Shown here: in pieces, positions 23,383-40,779 of the stretch
How positions within the stretch are numbered: the first letter of the stretch is position 1
Layout of the letters: the number at the start of each line of letters is the position of its first letter
DNA from: Chryseobacterium joostei
Lineage (GTDB): Bacteria; Bacteroidota; Bacteroidia; Flavobacteriales; Weeksellaceae
Reading direction: 5' to 3'
Assembly: GCF_003815775.1 (NCBI RefSeq)
Contig: NZ_CP033926.1
Span: 4,588,001-4,652,000, forward strand
Length of the DNA: 64,000 bases
Program-made: the position numbers and the translations under genes
Notes under the pieces: model-generated
Database searches by the model: none
What the model saw: the letters and a program-made list of their open reading frames with translations, nothing else
What the model was told of the DNA's origin: nothing

Positions 23383-23467
23383 AATATAATTAAATTAAAG
23401 TTTTATTCCCGAAACTTATTACAGAAAAAAGAATCAGATCCTTAGTTCTGTAATTAAAAATGTATTC

Positions 23468-23632
23468 AAGGCAGGTCTCCTGGCTTACATCCTTATAGCT
23501 AACCTTCCCGGATTTTTTGATCCAGTGGTATAATATTGCTATAGGTGAAACGGCTTACAGTTGCGGGTACAGCTCAAGAATTGAATAATATTCTCACTTG
23601 ATTCCCTATTAATGAACAGTGTTCAACCTTAA
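23468..23632 (-). ncRNA. Cobalamin riboswitch
   Basis: On the minus strand the conserved blocks occur in order: AGGGAATCAAGTG, GCTGTACCCGCAACTGTAAG, CACTGG, CGGGAAGG, and the B12 box GTAAGCCAGGAGACCTGCC at about 23470-23488. It ends about 85 bases before the T9SS gene start. A weak stem (TTACAGAA with TTCTGTAA, 23414-23454) lies between them and may be the expression platform. It lacks a strong T tract, so control at translation initiation is as likely as termination. The 519-base gap 23383-23901 also holds the promoter of the divergent phytase-like gene. Confidence 0.93.
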
Positions 23633-23901
23633 ATCGCTGCAAATATATCATATAAATTTTTGAAGACGTTTTGTGAATTATGTACGAAATTGTGCTTTTT
23701 TTGATGGTTATATATGCTTTGTTGCTTTAGATTTCATGAGTTGATACTTAATTTTAGTTTGTCTTTTGATTTTCGGATCAAACGGTGGGTTTTTATTGTT
23801 TATATTGAATTCATTCTTGGGTTTCATTGTTAAAACATAATTATTATTGCATTCAAGATCAGTTTACAATCAATCTATACTTTCGCGCCATAAAAGTTAA
23901 T

Positions 23902-32381: not shown

Positions 32382-33248
32382 ATGCTCCCAAATTCTCAAA
32401 TTCCCGAACCCTCAAACCCTCAGAAATACTCCATCAACTGCAATGGCAGGCTGGTACAACTTGATACCCCAAAGATTATGGGAATCCTCAATCTTACCCC
32501 AGATTCTTTCTCCGATGGTGGGAAATTTAACAATGAAAAACTGGCATTAAAACATGCTGAAAAGTTATTAAAAGAAGGAGCAGAAATTCTTGATATCGGA
32601 CCACAATCTACCCGTCCCAATGCAGAATTTTTGAGTAGTGAAGAGGAAATTGGCAGGATGGGAAACATCATTTCTCAAATTAAAAAAGAATTCCCTGAAG
32701 CACTGGTTTCTTTAGACACTTTTTATGCTGAAACCGTAAAATTCGGATTTAATGAAGGGATTGATATTATCAACGATATTTCAGGAGGACAATATGATAA
32801 AAAAATATTTGATACAGCAGCAGAAACAAGGCTTCCCTACATTTTGATGCACGTTAACCCGTCCTACGAAACCATGCATGATAAAATTAAGTTTGAAGAT
32901 ATAACCCTGGAAGTAAACCGATATTTTTCAGAAAAAACCAATGAGCTTTTACAGAAAGGAGTACATGATATTATCCTTGATCCCGGTTTTGGCTTCGGAA
33001 AAACAGTAGAAGATCAGATGAAGATGATTCACGAAGTAAACTTTCTTGGTTTTGGGAAGTTTCCTTTGTTGATAGGGATTTCCAGAAAATCATTTATCTA
33101 TAAACCTCTTGGGAAATCTCCTCTTGAGATCAATGAGGAAACACAAAAACTTCACATGAAAGTTTTAGAGCAGGGAGCAAAGATTCTTAGGGTTCATGAT
33201 GTGGCTGAGGCAAAGGAAACTCTCGATCAGTTTTTACAGAAAAAATAA
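32382..33248 (+). CDS. folP: Dihydropteroate synthase
   Basis: 288 residues from ATG 32382. Condenses 4-aminobenzoate with the pterin pyrophosphate in folate synthesis. Motifs in order: GILNLTPDSFSDGG, DIGPQSTRP, then LDPGFGFGK. The C-terminal half is complete (RKSFIYK, RVHDVAEAKE). The TIM-barrel length is normal. The gene ends 16 bases before the promoter of the ilv leader, so the ilv transcript is separately controlled. Confidence 0.94.
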   Translation: MLPNSQIPEPSNPQKYSINCNGRLVQLDTPKIMGILNLTPDSFSDGGKFNNEKLALKHAEKLLKEGAEILDIGPQSTRPNAEFLSSEEEIGRMGNIISQIKKEFPEALVSLDTFYAETVKFGFNEGIDIINDISGGQYDKKIFDTAAETRLPYILMHVNPSYETMHDKIKFEDITLEVNRYFSEKTNELLQKGVHDIILDPGFGFGKTVEDQMKMIHEVNFLGFGKFPLLIGISRKSFIYKPLGKSPLEINEETQKLHMKVLEQGAKILRVHDVAEAKETLDQFLQKK

Positions 33249-33264: not shown

Positions 33265-33294
33265 TTGCGAGTAATTAAAAAGTTTATACATTTG
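33265..33294 (+). promoter_or_regulatory. ilv operon promoter
   Basis: TTG (33265-33267), 19-base spacer, TACATTTG (33287-33294): a perfect Bacteroidetes promoter. The first leader ATG is only four bases further, so the mRNA probably begins at or next to the AUG. Confidence 0.8.
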
Positions 33295-33298
33295 CAAT

Positions 33299-33382
33299 AT
33301 GAATTTTACGAATCAGAAAAATATTATTGTCATTTCTATTGCAGCTGTTGTCATTTACAACAGTCAGGAAGCGGCATTTTAG
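33299..33382 (+). CDS. First ilv leader peptide
   Basis: A 27-codon ORF with the core IIVISIAAVVI, so eight Ile or Val codons in an eleven-codon stretch, and a stop at 33380. Bases 33368-33375 (GAAGCGGC) near its end repeat the 3' arm of the following terminator and can pair with the 5' arm at 33409-33416. This is the classic antiterminator arrangement: a ribosome stalled at Ile/Val codons leaves the pairing free, while one at the stop codon covers it. Confidence 0.88.
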   Translation: MNFTNQKNIIVISIAAVVIYNSQEAAF

Positions 33383-33406
33383 CATATATTTTTCTTTAAA
33401 TTATAC

Positions 33407-33438
33407 AAGCCGTTTCATTGTTGAAGCGGCTTTTTTTT
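33407..33438 (+). terminator. First ilv attenuator terminator
   Basis: Stem of 11 pairs: 33407-33417 (AAGCCGTTTCA) with 33422-33432 (TGAAGCGGCTT), loop TTGT, followed by eight T. It lies between the first and second leader peptides. Confidence 0.9.
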
Positions 33439-33464
33439 ATTTTAATTTTTTTATAGTCAAGAAT

Positions 33465-33521
33465 ATGTATCAGTTATTCGCAGTAATTATTATCGTCATT
33501 ATTATTCCCTTGCGCCTGTGA
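33465..33521 (+). CDS. Second ilv leader peptide
   Basis: An 18-codon ORF reading MYQLFAVIIIVIIIPLRL: six Ile, two Val and three Leu codons. It lies 27 bases after the first terminator and before a second one. The stop TGA falls inside GTGAGATGG (33518-33526), which repeats the 3' arm GTGAGAGGG of the second terminator and so could pair with its 5' arm. It thus repeats the logic of the first unit with unrelated hairpin sequences. Confidence 0.85.
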   Translation: MYQLFAVIIIVIIIPLRL

Positions 33522-33552
33522 GATGGAAGATGTATGACTGTACATATATTTT

Positions 33553-33583
33553 AGCCCTCTCACAACGTGAGAGGGCTTTTTTT
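33553..33583 (+). terminator. Second ilv attenuator terminator
   Basis: Stem of 11 pairs: AGCCCTCTCAC (33553-33563) with GTGAGAGGGCT (33567-33577), loop AAC, then seven T. It lies 33 bases before ilvE. Confidence 0.92.
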
Positions 33584-33615
33584 ATTCCCTTTTGTTAATT
33601 TTTAACCCCTATAAC

Positions 33616-34488
33616 ATGTATTACAACAACGACACGGTCATCTATTTTGATGGAAGCTTTATGAAAGCAAAAGAGGCCGGTATGGATCTTTACGGACAAT
33701 CTCTTCACTACGGATATTCTGTTTTTGAAGGAATCAAATCTTACAGTACTGCCCACGGAACAAGGGTCTTTAAGGCAAAAGAACATTACGAAAGATTGAG
33801 AAGATCAGCAGAACTGATGCATATTCCCTTCGATTATTCAGCAGAACAACTTACAGAACTCACCTACGAACTTCTAGAACTGAATGGCTTCACAGACGCC
33901 TATATCCGTCCATTGGTTACCTGTTCCCCCAATATGTCTCTTTCAAAAGGGAAAGAATCTTACCTCTCCTTGCTGGCTTGGGAATGGAGCAATGGTTATC
34001 TGGCAGATAAAATGAAGATTATGACCTCAGGTTTTCAACGCCCCAATCCTAAAGCATTTAAAGTAGAAGCCAAGGTGGGTGGGCATTATGTGAACTCTAT
34101 TCTTGCCTGTCAGGATGCCAAGGACAAAGGATATGATGAAGCCTTGGTATTGGACGAAAATGGAAATGTTGCAGAAAGCTCAGGTGCCAATGTTTTTTAT
34201 GAAAAAGATGGAACCCTGTTTACACCGGCAAAAGGAAGTATTCTACCTGGGATAACGAGAGAGACTGTTTTTGAAATATGCAGAGATCTTAATATCCCTG
34301 TTAAGGAAACTTTTTTTAAACCTGAGGAAATGAGAGGTGCTGATGCTGCTTTTTTCTGTGGTACCGCTGCTGAAATAGTTGCGTTGGATTCCCTTGATGA
34401 TATTCCTTTTGCAAAAAATTGGGAAGATACCGCAAGTCAAAAGGTACAACAGGCTTATTTGAAATTAGTGAGAGTTCTGTCGTTGTAA
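33616..34488 (+). CDS. ilvE: Branched-chain amino acid aminotransferase
   Basis: 290 residues from ATG 33616 (an upstream ATG at 33592 overlaps leader DNA). Last step in Ile, Leu and Val synthesis, PLP-dependent class IV fold. Recognised: SLHYGYSVFEGIKSY, the PLP Lys in KVEAKVGGHYVNS, and ESSGANVF. It is the first structural gene after the two attenuators, with 213 bases before ilvD. That gap holds a TAGTTTTG box (34596-34603), a possible internal promoter for the rest of the operon. Confidence 0.93.
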   Translation: MYYNNDTVIYFDGSFMKAKEAGMDLYGQSLHYGYSVFEGIKSYSTAHGTRVFKAKEHYERLRRSAELMHIPFDYSAEQLTELTYELLELNGFTDAYIRPLVTCSPNMSLSKGKESYLSLLAWEWSNGYLADKMKIMTSGFQRPNPKAFKVEAKVGGHYVNSILACQDAKDKGYDEALVLDENGNVAESSGANVFYEKDGTLFTPAKGSILPGITRETVFEICRDLNIPVKETFFKPEEMRGADAAFFCGTAAEIVALDSLDDIPFAKNWEDTASQKVQQAYLKLVRVLSL

Positions 34489-34646
34489 AAACAATGAATT
34501 TAATTGTTTGATTATTAGCTTGTTGTATTCGTTTTCTAAACAATTGAATATTGTAGTTTTCAGAAAAGTTGAAGATTAAAAAATATTACAAGGTGTAGTT
34601 TTGGACCAAAATTAAGTAAAAACCTCATTAGTGAATTTCGAAAAAA

Positions 34647-34700
34647 ATGAAATTTTTGACATCACACCAAGAGATGAGAAGAACAGGAAAAGAAGGATAA
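34647..34700 (+). CDS. Possible 17-codon ORF before ilvD
   Basis: ATG at 34647 to TAA at 34698-34700, ending one base before the ilv[21 protein letters not shown]. It could couple translation to ilvD or be chance. It has no excess of branched-chain codons, so it does not look like an attenuation leader. Confidence 0.2.
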
Positions 34701-34701
34701 T

Positions 34702-36378
34702 ATGTTAAATAAATATTCAAAAACATTCACACAAAATAGCGAACAGCCCGCTGCAAAGGCAATGCTTTACGGAATAGGCTTTACAGAAGAAGATATGCAT
34801 AAGGCTCAGATCGGGATTGCCAGTATGGGATATGACGGAAATACCTGCAATATGCATCTAAACGATCTGGCCCGAATTGTAAAGAAAGGGACATGGGACA
34901 CAGGATTGGCAGGGCTAATCTTTAACACCATTGGTGTAAGTGATGGTATGAGTAATGGTACCGATGGTATGCGTTATTCTCTGGTAAGCCGGGATGTTAT
35001 TGCAGACAGTATCGAGGCGATTTGTGGAGCACAGTATTATGACGGGCTTATTGCTCTGCCGGGTTGCGACAAGAATATGCCGGGAACCATTATCGCAATG
35101 GGAAGATTGAACAGGCCATCCCTTATGGTATATGGCGGAACTATTGCACCGGGATGCTACAAAGGAGAAGCTTTGAATATCGTTTCGGCCTTTGAGGCGT
35201 TAGGTAAAAAAATTGCCGGTGAAATTTCTGAAGAAGATTTTGATGGAGTTATTAAAAATTCATGTCCCGGAGCAGGAGCATGTGGCGGAATGTATACAGC
35301 CAATACCATGGCTTCAGCAATAGAAGCATTGGGAATGAGTCTTCCGTACTCATCTTCCAATCCGGCTTTAAGCAAAGAAAAACAAAATGAATGTCTGGAA
35401 GCAGGAAAATATCTCAAAATATTATTGGAAAAAGATATCAAACCGTCAGACATTATGACCCGAAAAGCCTTTGAAAATGCACTTCGCCTGATTGTTATTT
35501 TAGGAGGAAGTACCAATGCGGTTCTGCATTTTATAGCAATGGCGAAAAGCGTTGGAGTATCTGTTACACAGGATGATTTTCAAAAAATGAGTGATTGTAC
35601 TCCTGTACTGGCAGACCTTAAGCCCAGTGGTAAATACCTGATGCAGGATCTACATGAACATGGAGGAACGCCGGCTGTCATGAAATATTTGTTGGAAGAA
35701 GGATTACTGCATGGCGACTGTTTAACGGTTACAGGAAAAACATTAGCCGAAAATCTGGAAAATATACCGACGCTGGATTTTAATACACAAAAGATTATAA
35801 AACCACTATCAAATCCAATAAAGCCTACAGGTCACCTAAGAATACTGTATGGAAACCTTGCAGAAAAAGGAAGTGTTGCCAAGATAACAGGAAAAGAAGG
35901 AGAAAGGTTTGTAGGAAACGCCCGTGTTTTTGATGGAGAGAAGAACCTGATAAGAGGGATTGAAGATGGAACAGTACAACATGGAGATGTCATTGTTATT
36001 CGCTATGAAGGACCTAGAGGAGCACCAGGCATGCCGGAAATGCTGAAACCTACCAGTGCTTTGATTGGAGTGGGGCTGGGAAGCAGTGTTGCCTTAATTA
36101 CAGATGGCAGATTCAGTGGAGGGACTCATGGTTTTGTAGTGGGGCATATTACGCCCGAAGCCCATGAAGGCGGTCTGATAGCCTTTGTAAAAGATGATGA
36201 TCTCATTGAAATAGATGCGGTAAATAATACAATACAACTCAAGGTTTCAGATGAAGAAATTGAAAAAAGGAAACAAGGCTGGCAAAAACCAGCTCTAAAG
36301 GTAAAGAAAGGTTTACTCTATAAATATGCATTAACAGTATCATCTGCCGCCGAGGGCTGTGTAACGGATGAAATTTAA
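34702..36378 (+). CDS. ilvD: Dihydroxyacid dehydratase
   Basis: 558 residues, normal length. Dehydrates the dihydroxy acids to 2-keto acids in Ile/Val synthesis. Fe-S ligand motifs are visible: GCDKNMPG and [17 protein letters not shown]. The C-terminal half contains [14 protein letters not shown]. It follows ilvE by 213 bases and precedes ilvB by 11, in the same attenuated operon. Confidence 0.96.
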
Positions 36379-36389
36379 AATAAAACATC

Positions 36390-38114
36390 ATGAACAACCT
36401 AAATCTATCAATAGAAACAGAACTGAGCGGAAGCCGGATTATACTTGAAGCATTCCTTAAGGAAGGTATAAAGACTGTTTTTGGATATCCCGGAGGCGCC
36501 ATTATTCCAATCTATGATGCGCTTTATGACTATAAAGAACAGTTAGAGCATATTCTTGTCCGCCACGAACAGGCCGCAGTACATGCCGCACAAGGATTGG
36601 CACGAGTATCAGGAAAAGTAGGAGTGGTAATGGCAACAAGCGGTCCCGGAGCTACTAATCTAGTGACAGGGCTGGCTGATGCCTTACTGGATAATACTCC
36701 TCTTGTATGCATTACAGGACAGGTCTTTGAACATCTTTTGGGAACAGATGCTTTTCAGGAAATAGATGTAATGAATGTAACTAGTCCTGTTACCAAATGG
36801 AATTATCAGGTTACAGATGCCAACGAACTGCCTGAAGTGCTCGCAAAGGCTTTCTATATCGCAAGATCAGGTCGTCCGGGACCCGTACTCATTGATGTTA
36901 CAAAAAATGCCCAGTTACAGAAAGTTCCATATAAAGGATATTCACCCTGTCATTCATTGAGAAGCTATAAACCGGATCCGGTTCCATCCATGGAGTGTAT
37001 TGAACAAGCAGCTGATTTGATTAACAATGCAGAAAGGCCATTCATTATTGCTGGTCAGGGGATTATGCTAGGGGAGGCCGAGGAAGAGTTCTTGCAGTTT
37101 GCAGAAAAATCAGGAATTCCGATTGCATGGACTGTTTTGGGGATGGGAGCTGTTCCTACGGATCATCCTCAGGCTGTGGGAATGGTAGGAATGCATGGGA
37201 ATTATGGGCCTAATATTCTTACCAACCAATGTGATGTACTTATTGCTGTGGGGATGCGCTTTGATGACCGTGTTACAGGAAGACTGGATCAATATGCAAA
37301 ACAGGCAAAGATTATCCATCTGGATATTGATAAGGCGGAGATCAACAAAAATGTAAAAGTAGATGTGCCTGTTCTTGGAAATTGTAAGGAGACTCTGCCA
37401 CTTATTACAACGTTCATCAATAAAAGAGAACATTCAGATTGGCATCAAAAATTTAAAGATTGTCTGGAAGTTGAAAGTATTAACCTTATCAATGATGAAT
37501 TATTTCCTACAGAAGAAGAAATTACAATGGGGGAAGTCATCAGATACCTCAACGAAATTACAATGGGGGAAGCGGTTATTGTAACCGATGTGGGACAACA
37601 TCAGATGGTAACCTGTAGATATTCAAGCTTTAAAAACTCCAGAACGAATATTACAAGTGGAGGATTGGGTACCATGGGATTCTGTCTTCCTGCAGCAATA
37701 GGAGCAGCTTATGGAGAACATAATCTCCCTGTAATTGCTGTAATGGGTGATGGAGGAGCACAGATGAACATTCAGGAGTTGGGAACTGTGATGCAATATC
37801 ATCCGGATATTAAAATCTTAATTCTTAATAACAGCTATCTGGGAATGGTGAGGCAATGGCAGGAGCTTTTTCATGAGGAAAGATATTCATTCGTAGATAT
37901 CCAAAGCCCTGATTTTGTACAGGTGGCAAAAGGATATAGCATTTCCGGAAGAAAAGTCACTCAAAGACAAGATTTGAAAGATGCTCTCCACGAAATGCTT
38001 GATCATAAAGGAGCGTTTCTTCTTGAGGTAATGACAGGAAAAAAACACAATGTATTTCCCATGATTCCACAAGGGAAAAGCGTTTCAGAGATTGTATTGA
38101 ATCATAAACAATAA
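36390..38114 (+). CDS. ilvB: Acetolactate synthase large subunit
   Basis: 574 residues. ThDP enzyme forming acetolactate or acetohydroxybutyrate. The N-terminal domain has GYPGGAIIP and the catalytic Glu in HEQAAVHAAQG. The FAD domain follows. The ThDP motif is GDGGAQMNIQELGT to NNSYLGMVRQWQ. Normal length. ilvN follows 15 bases later, so the holoenzyme is co-expressed. Confidence 0.96.
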   Translation: MNNLNLSIETELSGSRIILEAFLKEGIKTVFGYPGGAIIPIYDALYDYKEQLEHILVRHEQAAVHAAQGLARVSGKVGVVMATSGPGATNLVTGLADALLDNTPLVCITGQVFEHLLGTDAFQEIDVMNVTSPVTKWNYQVTDANELPEVLAKAFYIARSGRPGPVLIDVTKNAQLQKVPYKGYSPCHSLRSYKPDPVPSMECIEQAADLINNAERPFIIAGQGIMLGEAEEEFLQFAEKSGIPIAWTVLGMGAVPTDHPQAVGMVGMHGNYGPNILTNQCDVLIAVGMRFDDRVTGRLDQYAKQAKIIHLDIDKAEINKNVKVDVPVLGNCKETLPLITTFINKREHSDWHQKFKDCLEVESINLINDELFPTEEEITMGEVIRYLNEITMGEAVIVTDVGQHQMVTCRYSSFKNSRTNITSGGLGTMGFCLPAAIGAAYGEHNLPVIAVMGDGGAQMNIQELGTVMQYHPDIKILILNNSYLGMVRQWQELFHEERYSFVDIQSPDFVQVAKGYSISGRKVTQRQDLKDALHEMLDHKGAFLLEVMTGKKHNVFPMIPQGKSVSEIVLNHKQ

Positions 38115-38129
38115 CATAAACATAAAAAA

Positions 38130-38411
38130 ATGAAAACAGAAAATAAAGAATATACCATAACAGCCTATACAGAGGATTGTTTGGGATTGATTACCAGGAT
38201 CAATGCTATTTTTTCAAGAAGAAGGATTTCAATTATGAATTTCAATATGGGACCTTCCGAAATAGAAAAGATAAAAAAGTTTGTGATCACCATTAAAGAA
38301 ACGGAAGAATCTGTTCAGAAGATTACCAGACAAATGGAGAAACAAGTAGATATACTGGAAGTTCATTATCACAAAAATCCACATCTGACCGTAGTAGAAT
38401 ACGCAAGCTAG
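38130..38411 (+). CDS. ilvN: Acetolactate synthase small subunit, short form
   Basis: 93 residues: a single ACT domain (about 8-85, TAYTEDCLGLITRINAIFSRR). Typical small subunits of about 160 residues carry a second domain that is missing here. It probably still binds valine for feedback control, but the range of regulation may be reduced. It sits between ilvB and ilvC. Confidence 0.88.
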   Translation: MKTENKEYTITAYTEDCLGLITRINAIFSRRRISIMNFNMGPSEIEKIKKFVITIKETEESVQKITRQMEKQVDILEVHYHKNPHLTVVEYAS

Positions 38412-38453: not shown

Positions 38454-39500
38454 ATGGCAAAATTGAATTTTGGAGGAGTAGAAGAAAACGTAGTAACAAG
38501 AGAAGAGTTTCCATTGAAAAAGGCTCAGGAAGTATTAAAAGATGAAGTGGTAGCTGTAATTGGGTACGGTGTACAGGGACCTGGACAGGCACTTAATCAA
38601 AAAGACAACGGAATTAATGTCATCGTAGGGCAGAGGAGAAATTCAAAATCATGGGATAAGGCTGTTGCAGATGGGTTTGTTCCGGGTGAAACGCTTTTCG
38701 AAATAGAGGAAGCTCTGCAAAAGGGAACCATCATCTGCTATCTTCTGAGTGATGCCGCACAAATAGAATACTGGCCAAAAGTAAAGCAACATCTTACTGC
38801 CGGAAAAGCACTATATTTTTCCCATGGATTCGGGATTACCTTTAATGAACGGACAGGAATTGTTCCGCCAGCAGATGTAGATGTTTTTCTTGTAGCTCCA
38901 AAGGGATCAGGAACTTCATTAAGAAGAATGTTTCTTCAGGATAGAGGACTGAACAGTAGTTTTGCTGTGTATCAGGATGCCACAGGAAAAGCCAGAGAAA
39001 GAGTTACTGCCCTTGGAATTGCCATAGGAAGCGGCTATTTATTTGAAACCAATTTTAAAAAAGAAGTTTACAGTGATCTTGCAGGAGAAAGAGGAACCTT
39101 GATGGGTGCGGTACAGGGAATATTTGCTGCCCAATATGATGTATTAAGGAAAAACGGACACAGTCCTTCTGAAGCATTTAACGAAACTGTAGAAGAACTT
39201 ACCCAATCATTAATGCCTTTGGTTGCAGAAAACGGAATGGATTGGATGTATGCCAACTGTAGTACAACAGCTCAAAGAGGAGCCTTGGATTGGTGGAAAC
39301 GCTTTAGAGATGCTACTTCTCCATTATTTGAAGAACTGTATGACAGCGTAGCTCAGGGAAATGAAGCCCAAAGATCCATAGACAGCAACAGTAAGCCGGA
39401 TTACAGAGAAAAACTGGAGGTAGAGTTAACTGAATTAAGAGAAAGCGAGATGTGGAGAGCCGGAAAAACGGTACGTAGTCTGAGACCTGAGAATAATTAA
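38454..39500 (+). CDS. ilvC: Ketol-acid reductoisomerase
   Basis: 348 residues, class I short enzyme. The NADPH-binding motif is GYGVQGPGQALN, and the metal/catalytic region includes DLAGERGTLMGAVQG and EETLTQS-like helices (EELTQSLMPL). Two Mg2+ are expected. The C-terminal region after 320 is short, consistent with class I and not the 490-residue class II. It lies 42 bases after ilvN. Confidence 0.95.
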   Translation: MAKLNFGGVEENVVTREEFPLKKAQEVLKDEVVAVIGYGVQGPGQALNQKDNGINVIVGQRRNSKSWDKAVADGFVPGETLFEIEEALQKGTIICYLLSDAAQIEYWPKVKQHLTAGKALYFSHGFGITFNERTGIVPPADVDVFLVAPKGSGTSLRRMFLQDRGLNSSFAVYQDATGKARERVTALGIAIGSGYLFETNFKKEVYSDLAGERGTLMGAVQGIFAAQYDVLRKNGHSPSEAFNETVEELTQSLMPLVAENGMDWMYANCSTTAQRGALDWWKRFRDATSPLFEELYDSVAQGNEAQRSIDSNSKPDYREKLEVELTELRESEMWRAGKTVRSLRPENN

Positions 39501-39516: not shown

Positions 39517-40779
39517 ATGAGGACGGGAGAAACCTATCTATCCATCTTGGATAATGTTTATAGCGCTGCAGAAAGACTCAAAAATGTATGTGTAAGAACC
39601 CCTTTGGCTTTTAATAATAATCTGTCAACGGTTTATAATGCGAAAATAAGCTTTAAAAGAGAAGATCTTCAAAGAGTAAGATCCTATAAAATTCGGGGAG
39701 CCTATAATAAAATGGCGACGATGTCTCAGGAAGAGCTTTCTAGAGGTGTTGTTTGCGCCAGTGCAGGAAATCATGCCCAGGGAGTTGCCTTTGCCTGCAA
39801 TTCTATGAAGGTGAAAGGTACTATTTTTATGCCTTTGCCAACCCCGGGACAAAAACTGGAGCAGGTGAAAATGTTTGGTGGGAATGATATTGAAGTCATT
39901 TTATTCGGGGATACCTTTGACGAAGCTAAAGATGCTGCGATGAGGTTTTGTAACGAAAAAGACGGAATATTTATTCATCCGTTTGATGATCCCGCGATTA
40001 TTGAAGGGCAGGCTACCACCGCGTTGGAAATTCTTGAACAAGCAGAAGAACCTATTGATTATCTTTTTGTACCAATAGGCGGCGGTGGGTTAGCTGCAGG
40101 CATATGCTCTGTCTTTCATGAGCTATCTCCCCATACAAAAATTATTGGAGTAGAACCATCGGCAGCGGCAAGTATGAAAAAGGCCCTGGAAAATGGAAAG
40201 CCTGTACTTCTTGAAAAAATCAGCCGATTTGTGGATGGTGCAGCAGTACAGCAGGTAGGAAATCTCACTTTTGAGCTTTGTAAAGATGTTTTGCATGATA
40301 TGGCAACCGTAGAGGAGGGCCTGGTATGCGAAACCATACTTTCACTGTATAACAAAGATGCCATTGTTGTGGAACCTGCAGGAGCACTTTCCGTTGCAGC
40401 ATTGGAAAAATATAAAGATCAGATCGAAGGGAAAAATGTAGTATGTATTATCAGTGGAAGCAATAATGATATCACCCGAATGGAGGAAATCAAGGAAAAA
40501 GCCTTGCTGTATGCCAACTTAAAGCACTATTTTTTGGTGAGGTTTCCTCAACGTCCCGGAGCTTTGAAAACCTTTGTAATGGATGTCTTGGGACAAAATG
40601 ATGATATTACTTTTTTTGAATACACTCAAAAAAACTCAAAGGAAAAAGGGATAGCAGTGGTGGGAATTGCCATAAAGCAAAAAGAAGATTTTACACCATT
40701 GATTGATAACATGAAAAAACATGATTTCTTTGTCAACTATCTGAACAATGATCCGTCCTTAATGAATTTACTTATATAA
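39517..40779 (+). CDS. ilvA: Threonine dehydratase
   Basis: 420 residues. PLP enzyme that makes 2-ketobutyrate for isoleucine. The PLP Lys sits in RSYKIRGAYNKM (about residue 53), and the substrate loop SAGNHAQGVA and the PLP phosphate-binding GGGGLAAG are present. The last 80 residues form one ACT-like domain (HYFLVRFPQRPGALKTF), the likely isoleucine-sensing site. It is the last gene of the ilv run, followed by a convergent hairpin terminator. leu genes are not in the window. Confidence 0.94.
   Translation: MRTGETYLSILDNVYSAAERLKNVCVRTPLAFNNNLSTVYNAKISFKREDLQRVRSYKIRGAYNKMATMSQEELSRGVVCASAGNHAQGVAFACNSMKVKGTIFMPLPTPGQKLEQVKMFGGNDIEVILFGDTFDEAKDAAMRFCNEKDGIFIHPFDDPAIIEGQATTALEILEQAEEPIDYLFVPIGGGGLAAGICSVFHELSPHTKIIGVEPSAAASMKKALENGKPVLLEKISRFVDGAAVQQVGNLTFELCKDVLHDMATVEEGLVCETILSLYNKDAIVVEPAGALSVAALEKYKDQIEGKNVVCIISGSNNDITRMEEIKEKALLYANLKHYFLVRFPQRPGALKTFVMDVLGQNDDITFFEYTQKNSKEKGIAVVGIAIKQKEDFTPLIDNMKKHDFFVNYLNNDPSLMNLLI

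Follow-up and report, generated by a model that had tools for sequence, protein, structure and literature searches.

Leader-peptide attenuation is well established and is usually drawn as one switch; the ilvGMEDA and ilvBN operons of Escherichia coli each carry a single leader-peptide attenuator. Upstream of ilvE in Chryseobacterium joostei, a first-pass annotation had described two complete ribosome-mediated attenuators in tandem behind one promoter. What would two such units in series do for one operon, and do they respond to the same signal? We examined this locus in a window of 64,000 nt, the whole stretch of DNA analyzed, which belongs to a 4.89-Mb genome (G000). All elements of the proposed arrangement were recovered and proved to be conserved. 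Together with the genes that follow, they are:

33265-33294 (+), promoter from reading of the sequence: TTG at 33265-33267, a 19-nt spacer and the -7 element TACATTTG at 33287-33294
33299-33382 (+), leader peptide A, 27 aa, sequence MNFTNQKNIIVISIAAVVIYNSQEAAF, with Ile/Val-rich codons at 33323-33355
33344-33364 (+), hairpin 1:2 of unit A, within the leader A ORF; 33344-33351 pairs with 33357-33364
33368-33375 (+), 5' arm of antiterminator A, GAAGCGGC, partner 33409-33416; its last base lies 4 nt before the leader A stop codon
33407-33438 (+), terminator A, an 11-bp stem at 33407-33432 followed by a T tract; fold z -6.3
33465-33521 (+), leader peptide B, 18 aa, sequence MYQLFAVIIIVIIIPLRL, with the VIIIVIII codons at 33483-33506
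33505-33528 (+), hairpin 1:2 of unit B, overlapping the end and the stop of leader B
33518-33526 (+), 5' arm of antiterminator B, GTGAGATGG, partner 33555-33563; contains the stop codon at 33519-33521
33553-33584 (+), terminator B, an 11-bp stem at 33553-33577 followed by a T tract; fold z -5.9
33616-34488 (+), ilvE, branched-chain aminotransferase, first gene of the operon (NCBIfam TIGR01122, above cut-off)
34702-36378 (+), ilvD (NCBIfam)
36390-38114 (+), ilvB (NCBIfam)
38130-38411 (+), ACT-domain ilvN-like gene, 93 aa (NCBIfam, under the curated cut-off)
38454-39500 (+), ilvC (NCBIfam)
39517-40779 (+), ilvA (NCBIfam)

The content of the operon, in the order ilvE-ilvD-ilvB-ACT(ilvN-like)-ilvC-ilvA, fits Ile/Val synthesis, and a dihydropteroate synthase (folP-like) gene ends upstream of the promoter, at 33248. 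The closest named match of IlvE is that of Chryseobacterium aurantiacum (96% identity). Under strict criteria, these were the only two Ile/Val/Leu-type units on both strands of the whole 64-kb window. No Rfam leader family matched the attenuator region at the gathering score; at E up to 5 there were 17 matches, all of them under the gathering score and none of them a T-box. Elsewhere in the window lies a cobalamin riboswitch (23453-23646, minus strand, Rfam RF00174, 108 bits).

The ilvE-ilvD gap carries a feature of its own. At 34540-34700, it contains a block homologous to the region directly upstream of this genome's leuA (L316, 1400-1580), which continues into a decayed copy of the first codons of leuA. 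Allowing up to three mismatches, the genome has two copies of a 34-nt core of the block. The block is largely retained in the 17 other Chryseobacterium gaps of the clade that were printed, with decay of the leuA part, and the two blocks are possibly a shared regulatory site.

We consider it highly likely that the region before ilvE consists of two ribosome-mediated attenuators of the same kind and of nearly the same specificity (charged tRNA-Ile and also tRNA-Val), placed in series on one transcript. This reading is based on conserved anatomy, on the covarying terminators and hairpin 1:2 of unit A, on the neighboring position of the two units, on the predicted stall profile, and on codon bias. 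From these features, we infer termination, ribosome stalling, and multiplication of repression as follows. With ample Ile and Val, the ribosome would reach the end of leader A and cover GAAGCGGC, and terminator A would form; polymerases escaping this terminator would face the same test at leader B. Upon starvation, a ribosome stalled in the Ile/Val run would allow the antiterminator to form, and both gates would open. Overall read-through would then be the product of both units, so that repression would be tighter, the range wider, and the response steeper than with a single unit.

To place the units in an evolutionary context, we read the DNA upstream of 80 named loci obtained by an ilvE search. 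The window and 53 other Chryseobacterium loci carry the same A+B pair, as does Flavobacterium beibuense (L051) in a more distant form. These make up the 55 alignment rows; two loci were excluded, one with a contig that begins 113 nt before ilvE with other sequence (L027) and one with a contig that begins inside unit B (L052). Structure tests were run on alignments of 43 rows for each unit (A1 and A2), with shuffle controls that ignore relatedness. In the covariation check that the first-pass annotation had proposed, both terminators covary across Chryseobacterium: 99.8% of cells were paired in terminator A, where both sides had changed in four pairs, and 99.4% in terminator B, where this was so for three, and neither covariation score was matched in 500 shuffles. 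Hairpin 1:2 of unit A was paired in 92.7% of cells; four of its eight pairs changed on both sides, a count equalled by 7 of 500 shuffles, and its covariation score was matched by none of 500. The corresponding hairpin of unit B (96.8% of cells paired) is almost invariant and hence gave no covariation signal.

The bases around each leader stop had been said to repeat the 3' arm of that unit's own terminator, and we located these repeats at 33368-33375 and 33518-33526. In the single sequence of the window, the score of the match was equalled by 42 of 2000 shuffles for A and by 230 of 2000 for B. Taken alone, an antiterminator match in one sequence is weak evidence; the case rests on conservation and on a cross-lineage test. 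Within the alignment, antiterminator A was paired in 96.2% of cells as compared to 28-57% in slid controls, while shuffles inside the clade were not significant (107 of 500 on cells and 31 of 500 on the covariation score). Antiterminator B, paired in 89.2% of cells, hardly varies: 41 of 42 rows share a mismatch at a single position, and there was no significant covariation inside the clade. The terminator sequences are plainly different from one lineage to another, as in CCCTCTCAC here versus CCTGTATCA in Gelidibacter (L078). Over 66 distinct units, with the ORF picked regardless of fit, the leader-stop sequence scored a mean of 4.82 against its own terminator versus 4.04 against foreign ones, a modest shift reached by none of 5000 permutations, which ignore relatedness. 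A score of 5 or more was found for 64% of these units with their own terminator versus 49% with those of others. An earlier version of the test, in which the detector's choice of ORF leaned to a good antiterminator, gave 4.93 versus 4.09.

Next, we evaluated where a ribosome would have to stall. For 52 loci per unit, we placed a ribosome at every codon in turn and folded, at equilibrium, the free RNA from its downstream edge to the terminator loop. Predicted antitermination was about 0.78 in A and 0.67 in B for stalls in the Ile/Val run through the last Ile codon, and it dropped within three codons after that, reaching 0.03 (A) and 0.08 (B) at the stop. In this model, the stall position thus decides the fold in both units, and the collapse after the last Ile indicates that the run ends where the ribosome starts covering the antiterminator arm, which is what cis attenuation requires. 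A calculation on the truncated transcript with no ribosome also favored the antiterminator (0.69 for A and 0.72 for B); basal termination must therefore stem from kinetics or from hairpin 1:2, which are invisible to equilibrium folding. Equilibrium folding is a rough tool for this question.

Codon use in the leaders is biased. Across 35 long ORFs in the window, 6.5% of the Val codons are GUC and 17% of the Ile codons are AUA. In the 54 Chryseobacterium rows, GUC accounted for 94 of 163 Val codons in leader A (58%, a 9-fold enrichment) and for 56 of 120 in leader B (47%, 7-fold), while AUA was used once among 298 Ile codons in A and once among 327 in B. At 20 other loci, 24 of 58 Val codons were GUC versus 5.1 expected, and 13 of 198 Ile codons were AUA versus 47.8 expected, the expectation for four of these loci being drawn from very few local codons. 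The third bases are also constrained, as seen in 47 of the 55 rows (eight were left out for gaps or another frame). The third base of six Ile codons of leader B was identical in all 47 rows, while the nine conserved Ile codons of ilvE had a mean third-base identity of 0.55 (leaders versus ilvE, p = 0.0002 for Ile and p = 0.03 for Val). One of the four conserved leader Val codons varies at its third base as much as those in ilvE (0.54).

Because the only tRNA-Val genes among 84 tRNA matches in the genome are two with the UAC anticodon, GUC seems to lack a Watson-Crick tRNA here, which would make it a starvation-sensitive codon; tRNA-Ile(GAU) is represented by seven genes. Elf et al. reportedly proposed in 2003 that the leaders of attenuators favor those codons that respond most strongly to starvation. 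One of the 84 matches, a 100-nt tRNA-like Rfam match (L312, G000:C1:4570728-4570827), was not called by ARAGORN.

If A and B sensed different amino acids, for example Val and Ile in A and Ile or Leu in B, the pair would form a logic gate, an arrangement that we regard as unlikely. Both leaders are Ile-rich with some Val. Over 17 tandem lineages, the Val share was slightly higher in A (0.23) than in B (0.17; p = 0.03, uncorrected, in a set that includes A units identified by eye and lineages that are not fully independent), and the B units of L067, L174, L178, and G239 have no Val codon, as such a gate might predict; in this clade, however, both leaders hold Ile and Val. It had also been suggested that the Leu codons added by the second peptide could let the operon respond separately to different charged tRNAs. 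This proposal fared poorly. Ribosomes stalled at Leu16 or Leu18 of leader B would already prevent the antiterminator from forming (predicted antitermination 0.14 and 0.00), and Leu content did not differ between A and B over the 17 lineages (p = 0.79). We therefore downgraded Leu sensing by leader B. Leu4 of the same leader falls in the permissive zone, and an effect of Leu through this codon is conceivable in the model.

The paired units were then followed through the genus by running covariance models of B (R1) and A (R2) on 169 genomes, with E below 1e-8 taken as strong. The conservation of leader ORFs and hairpins in relatives, for which the first-pass annotation had called, was present: strong matches were found in 84 genomes for B and 83 for A, and in all 83 genomes with A it lies 4-23 nt upstream of B on the same strand. 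The sole genome with B but no A (G313) has a contig edge inside unit B. Weak matches (E above 1e-5), which were the sole type in two genomes for B and nine for A, were not counted. IlvD was detected at E 1e-150 or better in 120 of the 169 genomes. It is close (87-100% identity) in 85 of them, including one in which it is in two pieces (G334), and 84 of these 85 carry B. In G314, which corresponds to the L027 contig and has a close ilvD, the 113 nt before ilvE that the contig covers have a different sequence and a different hairpin, with no terminator B; this may be a true exception or an assembly edge, the locus (L249) beginning at a contig end, as does L260. In another 35 genomes, and in the second copy carried by G340, IlvD identity is just 70-75%. 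A single unit was found in 14 of the 16 genomes examined among these 35, showing that two units are not required.

The existence of such single-unit relatives would suit a simpler scheme, in which regulation comes from one unit alone and its partner is either an evolutionary remnant or just a terminator that shields the operon from read-through of the upstream folP-like gene. We find this scheme improbable, because the peptide, the synonymous sites, and the covarying stems are kept in both leaders, and A or B alone at strong scores was found just at a contig end. The two units are also not a fresh copy of one another: their identity of 59% falls within the shuffle range (mean 54%, maximum 60%), in agreement with the initial annotation, and a recent A-to-B duplication in this clade was rejected.

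The survey also revealed some heterogeneity of the genus. No IlvD match at E 1e-150 was found in 49 of the 169 genomes, which suggests Ile/Val auxotrophy in some species. The genus holds two distinct ilv operon lineages, both of them present in G340. Ahead of the more distant ilvE, a different tandem pair was found in G335, the second copy of G340, and G239 (L250-L252); it is clear in L252, while the first unit is weaker in L250 and L251.

The region between the promoter and leader A has a fixed length in Chryseobacterium. In Flavobacterium johnsoniae, the -7 consensus is TAHHTTTG, with 4 or 5 nt between box and start, according to the available text of PMC6847099. The box at 33287-33294 (TACATTTG) fits this consensus, and in all 54 Chryseobacterium rows its end lies 4 nt from the ATG of leader A, the box itself being TACATTTG in 50 rows, TACCTTTA in three, and TACTTTTG in one. 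Based on this spacing and that of F. johnsoniae, the transcript probably begins on the ATG of leader A, which would make it leaderless. In 39 other box-bearing loci and L051, the distance is mostly 15-21 nt; it is 7 or 8 nt in three loci and 51 or 58 nt in another three, at least two of which have an earlier unit missed by the strict detector. Leaderless transcripts are described as a minority (5.5%) in Flavobacterium psychrophilum (PMC9723704, in the part available), and Bacteroidota as a phylum without Shine-Dalgarno sequences (PMC6847099, likewise in part). Within the 45 nt preceding leader B, a TAHHTTTG box was found in none of 55 loci. A second promoter of this type between the units was rejected on this basis, and unit B thus probably depends on read-through of unit A.

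A probably leaderless and strongly conserved leader A could also be expected if there were trans action, by the leader peptides or by the short RNAs that termination produces, besides or in place of cis attenuation, for which peTrpL of Sinorhizobium offers a precedent (PMC7298713, available in part). Because conservation follows codons and stems, as cis attenuation needs, we consider such trans action very unlikely.

To assess how far serial attenuators extend beyond this clade, we ran a strict detector over 211 upstream regions, some genomes being represented twice or more. It found 235 units, as compared to 1 in one approximate dinucleotide shuffle per region and 8 on the reverse strand. That the locus merely combines chance ORFs with two ordinary terminators, as the shuffle result for the antiterminator of B might allow, can be practically dismissed given these counts and the conservation, adjacency, and covariation in more than 80 genomes. 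Two or more units in a row occurred at 80 of the loci. Setting aside the named Chryseobacterium rows leaves 28 of these, of which 10 are further rows of the same clade, and the tandem loci beyond the clade number 16 (L051, L066, L067, L072, L076, L078, L159, L160, L174-L178, L181, L231, and L252), with L066, L146, and L173, which are one genome, counted once. The detector missed the first unit of the latter genome, which has a TTG start, and the first units of L142, L064, L250, and L251, which were found by eye or with looser settings; L122 is a false tandem.

Triple units were found in L067 and L174, and also in L066 if its TTG-start first unit is accepted. The last two units in these three loci are 92-96% identical, that is, unit B was duplicated, which identifies duplication as one route to additional units. 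In an ilvE tree of 82 rows, the two-unit label, which is rough, changes at least 12 times. In the sampled Flavobacterium loci whose operon starts with ilvD, at most one unit was detected. Our guess is that tandems may have arisen through fusion of an ilvD-type with an ilvE-type unit. The ilvE of F. beibuense (L051) clusters with Weeksellaceae (support 94/82, and 99/96 one fork deeper), and its tandem leader resembles theirs, which suggests that its operon and leader were acquired by horizontal transfer.

Among 199 Flavobacteriaceae genomes, about one per genus, 11 had an operon-type IlvE with at least 50% identity; seven of these 11 have tandem units, two a single unit, and two none. In an order-level sample, IlvD was present in 108 of 196 genomes and 60 upstream regions were taken, without most of the small-genome family f15 and the weak matches. 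In a phylum-level sample, IlvD was found at E 1e-150 or better in 64 of 158 genomes; 15 of the 64 had been sampled before or were the window's own genome, and from the other 49 we took 46 upstream regions, plus a second copy in G570. Only G585 (L231) among these 46 genomes had a tandem, indicating that tandems are recurrent but not general. The initial judgment that a double attenuator is unusual in Bacteroidetes needs the correction that tandems also occur in other members of the phylum.

Another amino-acid operon of this genome has an attenuator as well. Before hisG there is a His-codon attenuator (MKPIFLALHHYYHHLC, TAGGCGG, and a terminator; L313, 1155-1285), with one unit in the 1500 nt examined. 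The detector found no attenuator upstream of leuA (L316), and none was seen upstream of homoserine dehydrogenase (L314 and L315).

Compared with known systems, the locus shares with E. coli ilvGMEDA and ilvBN and with Corynebacterium ilvBNC an Ile/Val-rich leader and a terminator ahead of the first gene. In contrast to these operons, which have one unit each, it has two full units in series, the first of them probably leaderless. The Corynebacterium ilvBNC attenuator is described as a single leader-peptide unit in the accessible portions of PMC11857589 and PMC1262725. F. psychrophilum, a member of the same phylum, is reported to give "strong clues" to leader-peptide attenuation ahead of its amino-acid operons; in the available main text of PMC9723704, a serial arrangement is not mentioned and "ilv" does not occur. 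The Salmonella mgtCBR leader, as far as the available text of PMC3641672 describes it, similarly has two short ORFs, each steering transcription. Its tandem attenuators respond to different signals, ATP and proline, while here there is one signal class and each unit has its own intrinsic terminator. The inputs of mgtCBR are reported to be additive, which counts against multiplication, an assumption in our scheme. Tandem T-box riboswitches before ilv, leu, trp, and thrS in Bacillota (PMC12452182, in part) likewise form a series of two or three like sensors upstream of the same type of operon, using a tRNA-binding RNA in place of a translated leader. Finally, the rimP-leader of several Gammaproteobacteria shares the two serial terminators, the second with a potential antiterminator, and differs in that no leader peptide is described in the available part of PMC2965389. 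In the accessible portions of the attenuation literature, mainly outside subscription journals, we found no other leader-peptide attenuators of a single specificity arranged in series. Taken singly, the units are ordinary; their conserved arrangement in a row is not.

More tentatively, serial leader-peptide attenuation may be a recurrent design of Bacteroidota, in which two or three units of the same specificity, repeatedly gained and lost by duplication or by joining of ilvD-type and ilvE-type units, would form a multi-stage gate with multiplying read-throughs. In the Chryseobacterium clade, stage one would be leaderless, and the preference for GUC, a Val codon without a Watson-Crick tRNA, might sharpen the response to falling tRNA-Val charging.

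With a conserved two-stage attenuator, three-stage in a few relatives, nature offers a way to ask whether gates in series multiply and make a response steeper. Single-unit and two-unit relatives that share the same operon are found within one genus and could be compared directly, and the codon choice of the leaders offers a test of the starvation-sensitive-codon idea. For Chryseobacterium itself, the retention of the pair in nearly all of one large group points to a two-step brake on one operon.
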